A DNA stretch of 64,000 bases from Terriglobales bacterium (GTDB taxonomy: Bacteria; Acidobacteriota; Terriglobia; Terriglobales; Acidobacteriaceae). This document shows positions 24,615-44,300 of the stretch, in pieces (the first letter of the stretch is position 1; each line of letters begins with the position of its first letter). The stretch spans positions 1 through 64,000 of the forward strand of contig DASTZZ010000033.1 of the NCBI GenBank assembly GCA_035764005.1. The letters are read 5' to 3'. The notes under the pieces are model-generated. The model searched no databases, was not told the origin of the DNA, and saw only the letters and a program-made list of their open reading frames with translations. A program made the position numbers and the translations under genes.

Positions 24615-25610
24615 CTAAAGCTGGACTCGCCGGCCGGTCCTGATGCTGGCGTATGCTGCATCGAGAATTCGCTGATTGATCAACCCCTCGCAGCCAGGAA
24701 TTGGAAACGGGGTGCCCTTCTCAATTGCAAGAGCAAAGGCATCAACCTGATCGGAGTAGGTGCGGTCATTCGATACGCGCTCGGTCTTCAATTCGCCGCC
24801 GATAGCTTTTGTCTGGATATCGACTGCGTGGTCCACAGTGAGCGCATCTTCAGCCCCAACGATTCCGCCTTCGCAGGTGATCCACAGCGGAGTGCGATAT
24901 TCCGCGCGCGTCGAGACAGTCACGTCGGCGATCGTCCCCTTTTTGAACTCGAGCACCAATGTTGCTGCGGCTTCAACGGCTCCGGATTCCTGATCATAGA
25001 GCGCTCTTCCGAACACCGAAGCGACCTCATCCTGAAAGATATAGCGCAGCGCATCAATGCAGTGCACAGCCACGTCGCCCACCGGACCACCGCATGCCAA
25101 GGTTGGATCCTTCAGCCATTTGCGCGGATGCTGGCGCATGAAGTAATGAAACTCGGAGCGGGCTAGCAGCGGCTTGCCGAACGTTCCTGCTGAGACAGCG
25201 TCGCGAATTCGATTCACGCTTGGTTCGAAACGAAAGTTCTGAGCTACGCCAAACAGCACTCCGGCTTTGTCCGCCGCCTCCACCATCTGCTCTGCTTCAC
25301 GCGCATTCATCGCCAATGGTTTTTCGCAGAGTACGGGTTTGCCGTGACGAATAGCAATGAGCACGTGTTCCAGGTGCAAGGCATCTGGCGAGGCGACAAA
25401 GATGGCGTCGATGTCCTGCGAAGCACAAAGCGAGTCGGGCGTTTCGTAAGTTTTAAGGGGGAGCTTGGGATATTCGCGAATGGCCTGCTTTGCTTTCTGC
25501 GGATCGCGCCGCCAAAGGCCTGTAACCGTGCAGTGCCTCGCGTCAGCAAAGCCCGGCATCAGGCGACGCACAGCATGAAGACCGAAGCCAAGAATTCCAA
25601 ATCGGATCAT
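24615..25610 (-). CDS. Gfo/Idh/MocA family oxidoreductase
   Basis: An NAD(P)-dependent oxidoreductase probably acting on a sugar or inositol-like substrate. It has the N-terminal Rossmann motif GILGFGLHAVRR, the diagnostic CEKPLAMNAREAEQM and the catalytic-domain helix GPVGDVAVHCIDALRYIF. The ATG at 25610 gives MIRFGILGFG and 331 residues; the longer frame reads into the neighbouring repeat and is rejected. It lies 41 bp downstream of selB's opposite end on the same strand and is separated from the upstream parvulin gene only by an inverted-repeat element. Confidence 0.88.
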   Translation of the reverse strand: MIRFGILGFGLHAVRRLMPGFADARHCTVTGLWRRDPQKAKQAIREYPKLPLKTYETPDSLCASQDIDAIFVASPDALHLEHVLIAIRHGKPVLCEKPLAMNAREAEQMVEAADKAGVLFGVAQNFRFEPSVNRIRDAVSAGTFGKPLLARSEFHYFMRQHPRKWLKDPTLACGGPVGDVAVHCIDALRYIFQDEVASVFGRALYDQESGAVEAAATLVLEFKKGTIADVTVSTRAEYRTPLWITCEGGIVGAEDALTVDHAVDIQTKAIGGELKTERVSNDRTYSDQVDAFALAIEKGTPFPIPGCEGLINQRILDAAYASIRTGRRVQL

Positions 25611-25623
25611 AGCGAAACCAGAA

Positions 25624-25716
25624 CGGCGAACACGAAGGTCACGATGGCAACACAAGAGGTCACAAAGAATTTCTCTGTGACCTCCTCCTTTGTCTTCGTG
25701 ACCTTCGTGTTCGCCG
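25624..25716. repeat. Near-perfect 46-bp inverted repeat, cgaacacgaaggtcac family
   Basis: The left arm (25624-25669), beginning cggcgaacacgaaggtcacg, is almost exactly the reverse complement of the right arm (25671-25716), which ends gtgaccttcgtgttcgccg, with a one-base centre. It would form a very stable stem between the parvulin stop and the Gfo/Idh start and probably limits transcription between them. A second member of the same family lies at 41808-41910. Confidence 0.85.
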
Positions 25717-25725
25717 TGCCGTGCC

Positions 25726-40654: not shown

Positions 40655-40996
40655 GTGCGCCGAAGAACGCCAGTGCTGCTCGTTTTGGTAGCTTTCCTCG
40701 TCACCGCCACTGCGTTGGCAGATATTCCAACACGAGCGTCGCATACGCAGCCGGTTCTCTCCGAGAGTCAATCACATTTGCCTTTGGGAGCGTTCGACGA
40801 CTTTTCTGCGCCTCTCGATCCGCATCCATTCGCAACTGAGTTCTATCTTCACCAGTTTGCGCTTGAGAGCAGCAAATCCAGTTCACGCCAACGCTCGTGG
40901 TTTGATCCCGTGGTCAGCCCCGTCACGAATGCCGCTTCGAGTTTGTCGAAGCGGGTTGCGAGCTTGCGTCGCGCGCTGGTGAGGTTGATGCCGTAG
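40655..40996 (+). CDS. Small exported protein of unknown function
   Basis: 113 residues from a GTG at 40655 that begins a clear signal peptide (MRRRTPVLLVLVAFLVTATALA). The mature part is short and lacks known motifs (PHPFATEFYLHQFALESSKSSSRQRSW). It overlaps the end of the convergent SCO gene by 74 bp. Start and reality are uncertain because no strong ribosome-binding site is visible. Confidence 0.5.
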   Translation: MRRRTPVLLVLVAFLVTATALADIPTRASHTQPVLSESQSHLPLGAFDDFSAPLDPHPFATEFYLHQFALESSKSSSRQRSWFDPVVSPVTNAASSLSKRVASLRRALVRLMP

Positions 40997-41870
40997 TTGT
41001 CTGGCTTACGACTGCGAGAACTTCTTCAGGCTTCCAACTGTTTCCCGGGTACCAGGCTGAGATTTTCCCGTCCGGCCCAATCACGGTTGTGCTCAAGGAA
41101 TGCGTGATGCGGTTGCCATCTTCCTCGTAATACACTCCGAAGAAGTCGGCTAGTCTCTTCATCTCCGTTTCCGGAGCGCTCGCAAACTCCCAGTGTTTGA
41201 AGTCTTCTTTCGTGTAGCGCCCGGTGTAAGCAGCGCCGTAGCTGCGTAGCACTGGAGGCGTATCGTGCTTGGAATCGAAGCTGATGCTCAGCAGATGTGT
41301 CTTTGCATAAACGGCAGGGTTCTTCTCTAAATCTTTGTTGATAGCAGCAAAATTCTCATTCACCTTCGGGCAATAATCGTTCAGTGGGCAACGGGTATAG
41401 AAGAATGTGATTAGAAGAACTTTGCCGCGATAATCCTTGAGGTGAATGCGGGCATTGCTCTGGTTTGTGAGTGCAAAATTGGGAACCTGCTCGCTCACGC
41501 TCGGCACGTGCATTTGTGTGGACGGTACCGGAGCGCTTCCTGGAGGAGCCCGCTTCAGAACCTTTAACGCGACGATTTCTGCTTTATCTTCCTGGACGCG
41601 AAGATCAGCTTCGATCTCATCTCCTGCTGACACTTGGCCGAGCATGGCGTCGTCTTTCACGGAATACGGCATCGTCATCGCGTCCATAAAACCCGGAATC
41701 GCATCGTGATCGATGATCAGTTGATGCCCGAGCTTGTCGATCGAGATCACTTTGCCGTGGAGCTTGTAAATCTTCGCGGGAGGTTCGTGGCTGCAGCCGA
41801 AAAAGAAAAGAGCGAACACGAAGGTCACTAAGGTGAAAATCAAGGTCACGGAAAACCTGCAGTTCTTCAT
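40923..41870 (-). CDS. CusF-like and SCO1/SenC fusion lipoprotein (copper chaperone)
   Basis: An exported copper-handling protein, 315 aa. Lipobox at C26 (FFFGCS). A CusF-type domain follows (about 35-108: GKVISIDKLGHQLIIDHDAIPGFMDAMTMPY, the copper-binding His/Met/Trp-like surface of this family). Then comes a thioredoxin-fold SCO domain (about 120-285) with C161-P-L-N-D-Y-C167 and the conserved His in ITHSL. The Cys spacing is CP-x4-C rather than CxxxC, a variant seen in some SCO proteins. SCO delivers copper to the CuA site of cytochrome oxidase. The start at 41870, its ribosome-binding site and much of the signal peptide lie inside an inverted-repeat element. Confidence 0.88.
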   Translation of the reverse strand: MKNCRFSVTLIFTLVTFVFALFFFGCSHEPPAKIYKLHGKVISIDKLGHQLIIDHDAIPGFMDAMTMPYSVKDDAMLGQVSAGDEIEADLRVQEDKAEIVALKVLKRAPPGSAPVPSTQMHVPSVSEQVPNFALTNQSNARIHLKDYRGKVLLITFFYTRCPLNDYCPKVNENFAAINKDLEKNPAVYAKTHLLSISFDSKHDTPPVLRSYGAAYTGRYTKEDFKHWEFASAPETEMKRLADFFGVYYEEDGNRITHSLSTTVIGPDGKISAWYPGNSWKPEEVLAVVSQTTTASTSPARDASSQPASTNSKRHS

Positions 41871-41910
41871 GACCTCTTCTTTCACCTTAGTGTCCTTGGT
41901 GTTCGCTCTT
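41808..41910. repeat. Inverted-repeat element overlapping the SCO signal sequence
   Basis: The left arm (41808-41850, aagagcgaacacgaaggtca onward) and right arm (41869-41910, ending tccttggtgttcgctctt) are reverse complements with a few mismatches. It belongs to the same family as the element at 25624-25716: both contain cgaacacgaaggtcac and aaggtcac or gaggtcac blocks. It covers the first codons of the CusF-SCO gene, including the AGAGG before its ATG. Confidence 0.8.
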
Positions 41911-41921
41911 CTCATGATCCC

Positions 41922-44123
41922 TCAATAATGAAATCTATACTTTACCTGCAGCGAGAACTCGCGCGGATTCGCGAAATGTGAGCCCCCGAACGTATTGCTC
42001 AGGTCGATGAAGTAGCGCTTGTTCGTGAGATTCAATGCGCTTACCTTTGCCGACCAGTTCTCGCCAAATGACTTGCCGAGCGACACGTCGATCGTACGAT
42101 AGCTCGGCAGATGATCCGGTCCGTCGCCGTTCAGGAAGCCTGATCCATAATTCAGATTCGCTGCCAGCCAACTGCGATACGGCAAACTCGACGTCAATCC
42201 AGTGCTCAAGGTGTTGCGCTGATCGTGATCGAGATAGAAGAAGCCTTCCTCGGGCGGCGAGAAATCCGTAAGTCCTCCGGTCACACCTCCGCTGCCTTCA
42301 ATCGATTGATGCGAATATGCGAGATGAAAATCAAAGCGTCCGGCGACATGAGGCGAGCGCAGCGTACTTTCAAATCCGCGAATACGAACGTGATCGATGG
42401 TGAGCGGGAAAAAGATATTTGAGTTCCCAATCACGTCGTGATCGAAGAAGTTGCGCGCGCCCGTTCGGAAGTATGAGAAGTCGGTCGTCCATCCGCGCAC
42501 CGGAATGGTCAAGCCGAACTCGCGTTGCTCGTCGCGCTCGCCTTTGAGTGGCAGAAAGCCGAGATCTTGCGCGCTTGCGAACTCAAGCAATGGTCCGGAC
42601 AAGGTTGAAAGCGGCGGCGCCTGATAGTAGCGGCTATAGTTTGCGCGCAGCACCCAGTTGAGGGTGGGAACGCGAAGCGCGACTCCGAGCCGCGGATCAG
42701 CGGCGTTTTCACTCAGCGCCCCAGAGAAGTGAGTGAGTCGGATTCCGCCATTCAGAGTCAGCCACGAATTCAGTTTGTATTGATCTTCAAGAAAAATGGC
42801 TTCGAGCTGACCACTCACAAGATCGCGCTGGCGGAAGTCGTCACCGCCTCCGTCGTTTGCTACCAGGCGGAACAACGTACTGTCATGCTGCCCGAAGGCA
42901 TAGATTCCCGCACTGGCATTGTGTTTGCCTTTTGCCACACTCAACGAAATCTGGCCGCCCGCGTAGTTCGAGGCGCGGTTATCGGTCGCGCTCGGCACCT
43001 CATTGGCTCCGCCCTCGAAGGCTGCACGGTTGAAGTGGTAGAAGGGCGAGACAGTCAGGACCAGACTCGGCGACCACGAGTGAATCCAGGAGAAGTTCCC
43101 AAAGGCGTCCTGCTCACGTTCGCGATCGCGGATCAGGGCTGCTACCTGATCTGGGTCATTCGGCACCTGGTAATGATCCTGGCGGACCGAACCCACGAAT
43201 CGAAGTTGATCTACAGGCGTGGCGTTGAAAATAAGCGATGTGAACGCGCCGTAGCCATTCGCGCGATCGTGCAGAACACTCGAAGTCGGAGTTTCGAGTC
43301 CCAAATCGGTACGATTGCCGCTCAGACTCGCGTAGTAGGCAAATCGATCGGTATGACTGCCAAAGTTGAGTTGATTGTCTGTGTTGTTGTAGCTGCCGTA
43401 GCCGGCGATTAGCTCGGCTTCGCTGTTGCGCTCGAACCCTGAACGCGTGATCACATTGAAAACGCCGTAGGTACGGTCACCCGCGTCGGCGGATAGTCCG
43501 CCGCGCTCGGCTTCGACATAATCGATGTCCTTGGGATCGAACTGCGGCCCTACGTTGCTGGCAATATTCGTGTTCGGAACCGGAACTCCGTCGATTGCCC
43601 ACGTTACCTGGTGTCCGCCACGAATGTGGAGCTGATCGTGAACGATGTATGCTCCAGGGACAAAATCGGTAATTGCCGCCAGAGAATTTGCCTGGTCCGC
43701 GCCCGGCGTTTCATTGATCTCACGCCGGCTGATCATGCTTTGCGTGGTGCTCGATGAGGGGTTCACCGCTGCGGCTTCGCCCGTGACTTCCACTGTCTCT
43801 TTGGCCCCGGCAATTGCAAGCGGAAGATGCAAATCTTCGGCATTGCCGTCTATCACGCGAATAGTGATCGTGTTGTCAGCAAATCCGGGTGCACTTACCG
43901 TGACGGAATAGTCCCCCAGAGGGACGGTCTGCATCTGGAACAGTCCAGCATCGTTCGTAGTAGCTTCGGCCTTCCAGTCGCTCGTATTCGACTTCAATAA
44001 CACCTGAGCACCGGCAATAGGACGATGCTGCGGGTCGTGAACGACTCCCTTCACCACGCCGAATACTGAAGCGAACACCAAATTGGGAATCAATAATAAC
44101 GTTAAGGCAAGTACGCGTCGCAC
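41922..44123 (-). CDS. TonB-dependent receptor, probably copper-related
   Basis: An outer-membrane receptor of 733 residues from a GTG at 44123 with GAGGAG six bases upstream; this start gives a clean signal peptide (VRRVLALTLLLIPNLVFA). Carboxypeptidase-regulatory domain (about 22-100), plug (about 105-235: HVQW-type WAIDGVPVPNTNIASNVGPQFDPKDIDYVEAERGG) and a barrel ending YRFHY. It is followed at once by the CusF-SCO gene and preceded by a small CCRRGGAHHC protein on the same strand, so copper or a copper complex is the likely cargo (inference). Confidence 0.88.
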   Translation of the reverse strand: MRRVLALTLLLIPNLVFASVFGVVKGVVHDPQHRPIAGAQVLLKSNTSDWKAEATTNDAGLFQMQTVPLGDYSVTVSAPGFADNTITIRVIDGNAEDLHLPLAIAGAKETVEVTGEAAAVNPSSSTTQSMISRREINETPGADQANSLAAITDFVPGAYIVHDQLHIRGGHQVTWAIDGVPVPNTNIASNVGPQFDPKDIDYVEAERGGLSADAGDRTYGVFNVITRSGFERNSEAELIAGYGSYNNTDNQLNFGSHTDRFAYYASLSGNRTDLGLETPTSSVLHDRANGYGAFTSLIFNATPVDQLRFVGSVRQDHYQVPNDPDQVAALIRDREREQDAFGNFSWIHSWSPSLVLTVSPFYHFNRAAFEGGANEVPSATDNRASNYAGGQISLSVAKGKHNASAGIYAFGQHDSTLFRLVANDGGGDDFRQRDLVSGQLEAIFLEDQYKLNSWLTLNGGIRLTHFSGALSENAADPRLGVALRVPTLNWVLRANYSRYYQAPPLSTLSGPLLEFASAQDLGFLPLKGERDEQREFGLTIPVRGWTTDFSYFRTGARNFFDHDVIGNSNIFFPLTIDHVRIRGFESTLRSPHVAGRFDFHLAYSHQSIEGSGGVTGGLTDFSPPEEGFFYLDHDQRNTLSTGLTSSLPYRSWLAANLNYGSGFLNGDGPDHLPSYRTIDVSLGKSFGENWSAKVSALNLTNKRYFIDLSNTFGGSHFANPREFSLQVKYRFHY

Positions 44124-44169
44124 CTGAGACTCCTCTGAATGAAACGTAAGGTTGTTGCGGGCGGACTCT

Positions 44170-44300
44170 TCATAATTTCGTGATTTTGCGATTTCGTGAT
44201 TTCGCGATTGAAGAGCGCTCAACTCCGACTTATGTGCCGGGTGAACGAGCAACGCGAAAACGCGACTGCCTATTGGACAATACGAAATCGCAGATACGGA
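44170..44300. repeat. Short-unit repeat tttcgtgat, partly inverted
   Basis: Between 44170 and 44213 the unit tttcgtgat or variants (ttttgcgat, ttcgcgat) occurs four times in a row. A weaker reverse complement (caatacgaaatcgcagat) lies near 44278-44295. It fills the space between the small copper-motif gene and the TonB receptor start. It is likely a degenerate relative of the other inverted elements. Confidence 0.45.

Follow-up and report, generated by a model that had tools for sequence, protein, structure and literature searches.

A dispersed palindromic element of about 100 nucleotides is very likely the source of the signal-peptide core of a CusF-SCO copper chaperone in the Terriglobales genome analyzed here, one of a group of soil acidobacteria, having been inserted upstream of the native lipobox, where it would have replaced an older signal. 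Comparison of orthologous loci shows that the predicted h-region derives from the element, that its carriers share one register, and that a related genome, G062, and the outgroups have a different signal. Because the carriers hold the arm in register and G062, which is basal in the locus tree, has an unrelated signal, the insertion appears to have replaced an older export signal. The initial annotation had proposed that the element created or replaced both the translation start and the export signal. The orthologue comparison sustains the part concerning the signal core, while the element as source of the start codon and ribosome-binding site is not established: ATG 41870 lies one base off the element consensus, through a substitution present in one of the 20 aligned copies, and ATG 41915 is a rival start. 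Creation of the gene itself by the element does not hold, the CusF-SCO gene being old and its lipobox native.

The features of the locus, located in a window of 64,000 nucleotides (the whole stretch of DNA analyzed), are summarized in Table 1. The CusF-SCO product passes the Pfam cut-offs for both of its domains (CusF_Ec, 53.9 bits against 27; SCO1-SenC, 59.7 bits against 22.8), and its sole match in the source genome at E ≤ 1e-20 is to itself. Counted from ATG 41870, the protein begins MKNCRFSVTLIFTLVTFVFALFFFGC. The 3′ arm of the element is translated as LVTFVFAL, the hydrophobic core of the predicted lipoprotein signal, and the translation predicted from the sequence is open through the element into CusF-SCO. 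A PS51257-like lipobox pattern (a hydrophobic core, then a lipobox ending in Cys) was matched in the source genome and in the related genomes G060, G054 and G061. A start downstream of the element would have undone the proposed role of the repeat; no in-frame ATG, GTG or TTG occurs between the element and the Cys codon in the source genome, so the proposal stands on this point. The TonB-dependent receptor is also found upstream within the genus, with 78-82% identity over the C-terminal 432-459 residues in four relatives.

Table 1. Coordinates of the features at the CusF-SCO locus and of the sister copy in the window.
Feature	Position	Strand	Details
CusF-SCO1/SenC lipoprotein gene	40923..41870 (counted from ATG 41870)	-	CusF_Ec, E 1.7e-14; SCO1-SenC, E 3.9e-16
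Native FFFG and lipobox Cys26, downstream of the element arm	41793..41807	-	
Palindromic element copy, ~100-nt hairpin	41805..41913	.	Repeat, fold and model match; conserved core about 41808-41912
Inverted repeat arms	41805-41856 and 41862-41913		52 nt each, 81% complementary, 5-nt gap
Element 3′ arm	41805..41856	-	Part 41805-41846 encodes TLIFTLVTFVFALF, the predicted signal-peptide hydrophobic core
Element 5′ arm (transcript direction)	41862..41913	-	Contains AGAGG and ATG 41870; would be leader or code for the N-terminus, according to which start is used
Candidate start ATG within the stem	41868..41870	-	AGAGG 41873-41877, 2-nt spacer; element consensus there is CAC
Candidate start ATG at the outer element edge	41913..41915	-	GAGGG 41919-41923, 3-nt spacer; 6 nt past the receptor stop
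TonB-dependent receptor gene, upstream	41922..44252	-	Stop codon 41922-41924
Sister copy, intergenic	25622..25718 (model match)	.	Arms 25623-25669 and 25671-25717, 85% complementary

The inverted repeat that had been annotated at 41808-41910 is real, its interval being identical to the covariance-model match of this copy (E 2.1e-17), and its two arms hold what had been assigned to them, namely the AGAGG and ATG 41870 in one and the hydrophobic core in the other. On the minus strand, that of the transcript, the copy has a folding energy of -72 kcal/mol, whereas 200 shuffles average -34.94 kcal/mol (z -9.45) and none of them is as good. By eye, two unpaired changes are found in the 5′ arm and none in the 3′ arm; this asymmetric decay agrees with selection on the coding arm, in changes too few to count. 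No intrinsic terminator was predicted in 41700-42100, so a plain terminator role for the hairpin is unsupported, and Rfam gave no match at gathering score across the 64-kb window. The sister repeat, annotated at 25624-25716, is separated by 7 nt from a gene called on one side, at its 3′ end, and by about 11-13 nt from the in-frame ATG 25608-25610 of the gene on its other side, whose start as chosen by the gene caller is 62 nt away; since the model match falls outside both flanking genes, the sister copy is non-coding, as the annotation stated.

These two repeats belong to a larger family than the pair initially described. Using a covariance model built from 20 copies, we located the ~100-bp hairpin at 57 distinct places of the 5.1-Mb source genome at E ≤ 1e-3 (from a listing, at E ≤ 1, of 125 hits over the two strands), a count that may be a lower bound, with 150 of 1848 first-look candidates scored; copies are about 95-105 nt long. 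Matches at E ≤ 1e-4 are carried by all five other genomes of the genus, thus by six of six including the source genome, and 22 of 60 sampled genomes of the taxonomic family have matches at E ≤ 0.001. Placement was measured on 63 copies of the source genome (the 57 together with six of seven half copies seen by BLAST) and 61 copies from the five other genomes, using our own periodic Markov gene caller, which was adopted after a mean codon score for coding overlap proved too insensitive and missed the CusF-SCO gene. The 5′ ends given by this caller are rough, since it placed the CusF-SCO start 57 nt inside the gene side of the element. In the source genome, the median distance from the element to the 3′ end of a neighboring gene is 5 nt, with 56 of 64 such ends within 20 nt and seven of them overlapping it; to neighboring 5′ ends the median is 47 nt, with 14 of 56 within 20 nt. 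Around the copies of the other genomes, the ends within 20 nt are 39 of 55 (3′) and 1 of 55 (5′). When positions are drawn at random in 31 gaps of the window, 5.6% of 3′ ends and 6.0% of 5′ ends fall within 20 nt; by comparison, the observed counts indicate that the family sits mostly behind stop codons. The studied copy follows this habit, the distance past the receptor stop codon being 8 nt for the start of its arm and 11 nt for that of its model match.

Captures of the element as a signal peptide are rare, with one recognized among the 124 copies examined. No other convincing case was found among the nine most hydrophobic element frames of each of the two sets, and six candidates (L013, L003, L285, L294, L284 and L315) were rejected, as their in-frame starts come after the element. 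The source-genome copies that overlap the 3′ end of a called gene are L015, L159, L161, L172, L180, L188 and L190, and in these seven, stop codons and residues of the C-terminus may come from the element. A second subfamily (L177, L180, L183-L187, L191 and others) ends in GTTAACACGAAGG rather than GCGAACACGAAGG.

To place the fusion in context, 113 orthologous loci were compared with that of the source genome; of these 114, 112 had enough upstream DNA. The genomes compared are drafts, and the 112 loci include duplicates (L058 equals L062 in one genome and L059 equals L063 in another; others are possible). When the arm was aligned locally, without anchoring, to the 180 nt that precede the CusF domain, the source genome scored 64, G054 59 and G060 55 (two loci of one genome), while the other 108 of 112 loci scored at most 25 and the overall median was 13; G061, at 19, is inside this background. 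A Cys-anchored test, applied to the 30 nt ending 12 nt before the lipobox Cys, covered 93 loci, the remaining 19 of the 112 having been set aside as the lipobox rule found none, though several plainly have a Cys (e.g., PTGC). Here the source genome scored 29, G054 26, G060 25 (two loci) and G061 21, against a mean of 10.4 (sd 2.3, maximum 17) for the other 88 loci. Of the 48 nt preceding Cys, G061 also shares 31 with the source genome, compared with 24 for the runner-up locus, and the model applied to the G061 site alone gave 13.3 bits (E 0.0016 over 304 nt, filters off), as opposed to a best match of only E 3.3 at the G062 site. When 18 orthologue loci were searched for whole elements, none of these remnants reached significance (E 0.1 for G054, locus L052; 0.41 for G060, L058/L062; 0.69 for G061, L060). 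The 3′ arm is thus common, in the same register, to G054, G060 and, in diverged form, G061; the sequence evidence for an element arm at the G054/G060 locus is strong, and that for a diverged remnant in the same register at G061 is moderate. The signal of G062 is unrelated (MKLFTRANAVFFLAVVIVLSGC), element-free outgroup orthologues carry different signal peptides, and G063 has no CusF-SCO orthologue at E ≤ 1e-10. The orthologue check proposed in the initial annotation, that relatives lacking the element should have a different signal peptide, is therefore borne out, with the carriers keeping the arm in register before Cys.

Translation of the chaperone would begin at ATG 41915 or at ATG 41870, with an approximately even chance for the former and only slightly less than that for the latter. 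ATG 41915, a second in-frame ATG at the outer edge of the element absent from the initial annotation, belongs to the flank because the conserved core ends near 41912; if it is the start, the whole element would be coding (MRRANTKDTKVKEEVMKNCRFSVTLIF...), and ATG 41870 with its ribosome-binding site would be unused. Its position just behind the receptor stop and its GAGGG with a 3-nt spacer (Table 1) are consistent with this, as is a codon predicted to be 62% unpaired, compared with 1% for ATG 41870. The relatives point the same way: starts downstream of the remnant edge in G054, G060 and G061 would leave signal peptides of at most 11 residues, and for this reason their credible starts lie upstream of the remnants. 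Against ATG 41915 stands the length of the signal peptide before Cys, 40 residues rather than the 25 obtained from ATG 41870; its opening energy (-18 to +12) is also high, at 28.4 kcal/mol, and its anti-SD pairing (-6.1) is no stronger than that of ATG 41870 (-6.5). The opening energy of ATG 41870 is 34.5 kcal/mol. At the starts of the 38 ATG-initiated ORFs of 200 aa or more in the window, the median is 13.0 and the maximum 28.4 kcal/mol, the latter equal to the ATG 41915 value, so both candidate starts are costly to open. The earlier suggestion that transcript folding could hide the start codon thus agrees, by computation, with the values for ATG 41870.

In G054 and G060, the 5′ half of the element is gone and is replaced by two near-copies of a second palindrome with the consensus GTAGAGACGCAGCATGCTGCGTCTCTAC (eight places, four of them at this locus). 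Exact copies of its core number 37 in G054, 188 in G060, 48 in G063 and three in G062, with none in the source genome or G061. Two copies lie in the flank of one Y1_Tnp gene (L199; L199:2517), and the palindrome is likely a GTAG-type REP with its RAYT. The best-looking start of G054/G060 is a GTG with GAGGA 8 nt upstream, its first codons lying inside this second repeat. A broader proposal, tentative and on balance rather unlikely, is that the genus rebuilds export signals piecemeal from repeats, G054/G060 taking the h-region from the hairpin element and the n-region with its GTG start (METQHAASLRR in G060) from the GTAG-tagged palindrome, and that the intact hairpin of the source genome gates chaperone translation via ribosomes of the receptor gene. 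As a separate observation, the similarity of the CusF-SCO frame of G054 (L052:1501-2541) extends only to about residue 134, leaving it without the SCO half, and the contig breaks off shortly beyond; the sequence past the break looked RAYT-like by eye and was set aside, having no Pfam match at E ≤ 1.

The history of the locus was examined in a DNA tree of the receptor end and the CusF domain, in which G062 falls outside the source genome, G061 and G054/G060 (95/96) and the latter three form a polytomy; the AU test does not reject a clade that joins G054 and G060 to the source genome (p 0.19, locus DNA), and the corresponding protein tree does not settle the branching order. As a species marker, gyrB was used, rpoB having been dropped because it had no match in G061 and only a partial one in G060, and the gyrB tree instead groups the source genome, G061 and G062 (100/99). 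G054 and G060 are 97% identical in protein at the receptor-SCO locus (L052 and L058), yet 0.26 substitutions per site apart in gyrB, a likeness that would reflect either recent transfer between them or bin contamination. Given the conflict between locus and gyrB, the insertion is dated on the locus only, and G054/G060 are counted once. At least two independent insertions of the same family at one spot, or interspecies recombination spreading one fused locus, would account for carriers that are not united by gyrB and would suit a family present genus-wide with a preference for stop codons, but this is quite improbable: the carriers have one register, the arm ending 12 nt before the Cys codon, the non-carrier G062 lies outside them in the locus DNA tree, and transfer between species still implies one original insertion. 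The comparison thus favors a single insertion event. A chance likeness, in which a native hydrophobic signal peptide happened to resemble the repeat, has a negligible probability, for although V, F, L and A codons abound in any signal peptide and the locus L087 aligns at 25, the score of 64 in the source genome compares with a shuffle mean of 12.9 and a maximum of 21 in 500 shuffles, the full-length model match is highly significant (E 2.1e-17, as above), and the other arm is present too.

The preferred reading, that the inserted element supplied the signal core, can be set out as a sequence of events. A MITE/REP-like palindromic element, of a family habitually found just behind stop codons, would have inserted after the TonB-receptor stop, in the short intergenic gap, in an ancestor of the source genome, G061 and the G054/G060 locus. 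By steps that we infer, it would then have become joined in frame to the CusF-SCO gene, directly upstream of the native lipobox. Since the arm reads as the hydrophobic V-T-F-V-F-A in one of its three frames, it could serve as a ready h-region of a lipoprotein signal; the old signal would have been replaced and the arm retained, and in the relatives the remaining half of the element would have been shortened or overwritten. The protein would accordingly be exported and lipidated with the element-derived signal, and the intact hairpin between receptor and chaperone may lower chaperone translation or couple it to ribosomes leaving the receptor gene.

The hairpin element itself was found undescribed in the literature that was searched. 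In Yersinia, the signal peptide predicted for YPO1552 has its residues 1-30 formed by the palindrome RU-2/YPAL, and the signals of its homologues are unrelated (Delihas 2007, PMC2759123; reviewed in PMC2229807). The event described here is of the same kind, a well-documented further case: in both, a dispersed palindrome gives an N-terminal part of a signal peptide and homologues have unrelated signals. The present case differs in element family and phylum and in involving a conserved two-domain copper protein with a lipobox; it also offers a series in which the arms are intact, halved or diverged from one relative to the next, and its start codon may lie within the hairpin. The wider class is that of the fusions made by Rickettsia palindromic elements (RPEs), which are described as about 100-150 bp long and translated in frame within genes (PMC2229807, PMC10969869), and the element resembles them in its palindromic form, comparable size and predicted in-frame translation; RPEs enter many genes, whereas the hairpin family has the single recognized capture, the rest of its copies lying mostly behind genes. 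The features of the RPE/YPAL class found here are a short dispersed element, within the class range of about 100-200 bp, that folds into one long hairpin (57 copies, -72 kcal/mol for this copy), and a predicted in-frame fusion to a host protein. REP/REPIN sequences associated with RAYT, as outlined in PMC3733652 and PMC12306157, are likewise dispersed palindromes, many close behind stop codons, but these short REPs are unlike the hairpin element, with its length of about 100 nt and long stem. A RAYT link for the hairpin is unsupported: no GTAG/CGTC tag appears in the end profile of 118 element ends, and no element match at E ≤ 0.1 was found in 30 scanned Y1_Tnp loci (flanks up to 1.5 kb) of the 52 in the genus. 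According to work cited in PMC12306157, translation is reduced by E. coli REPs that lie no more than about 15 nt from a stop codon, an effect that may offer a lead for the role of the hairpin family.

Taken as read here, the locus would show the states before and after a dispersed repeat took the place of a functional part of a conserved protein, with a series running from an unrelated signal in G062 and the outgroups, through the intact element in the source genome, to the half or diverged remnants in the relatives. It would also illustrate a pre-adaptation of the element, whose stem arm holds VTFVFA in one frame, and how rarely that capacity is recognized in use. Finally, it may provide a natural test case for translation from a start region that lies at the edge of, or within, a highly stable hairpin behind the stop codon of another gene.
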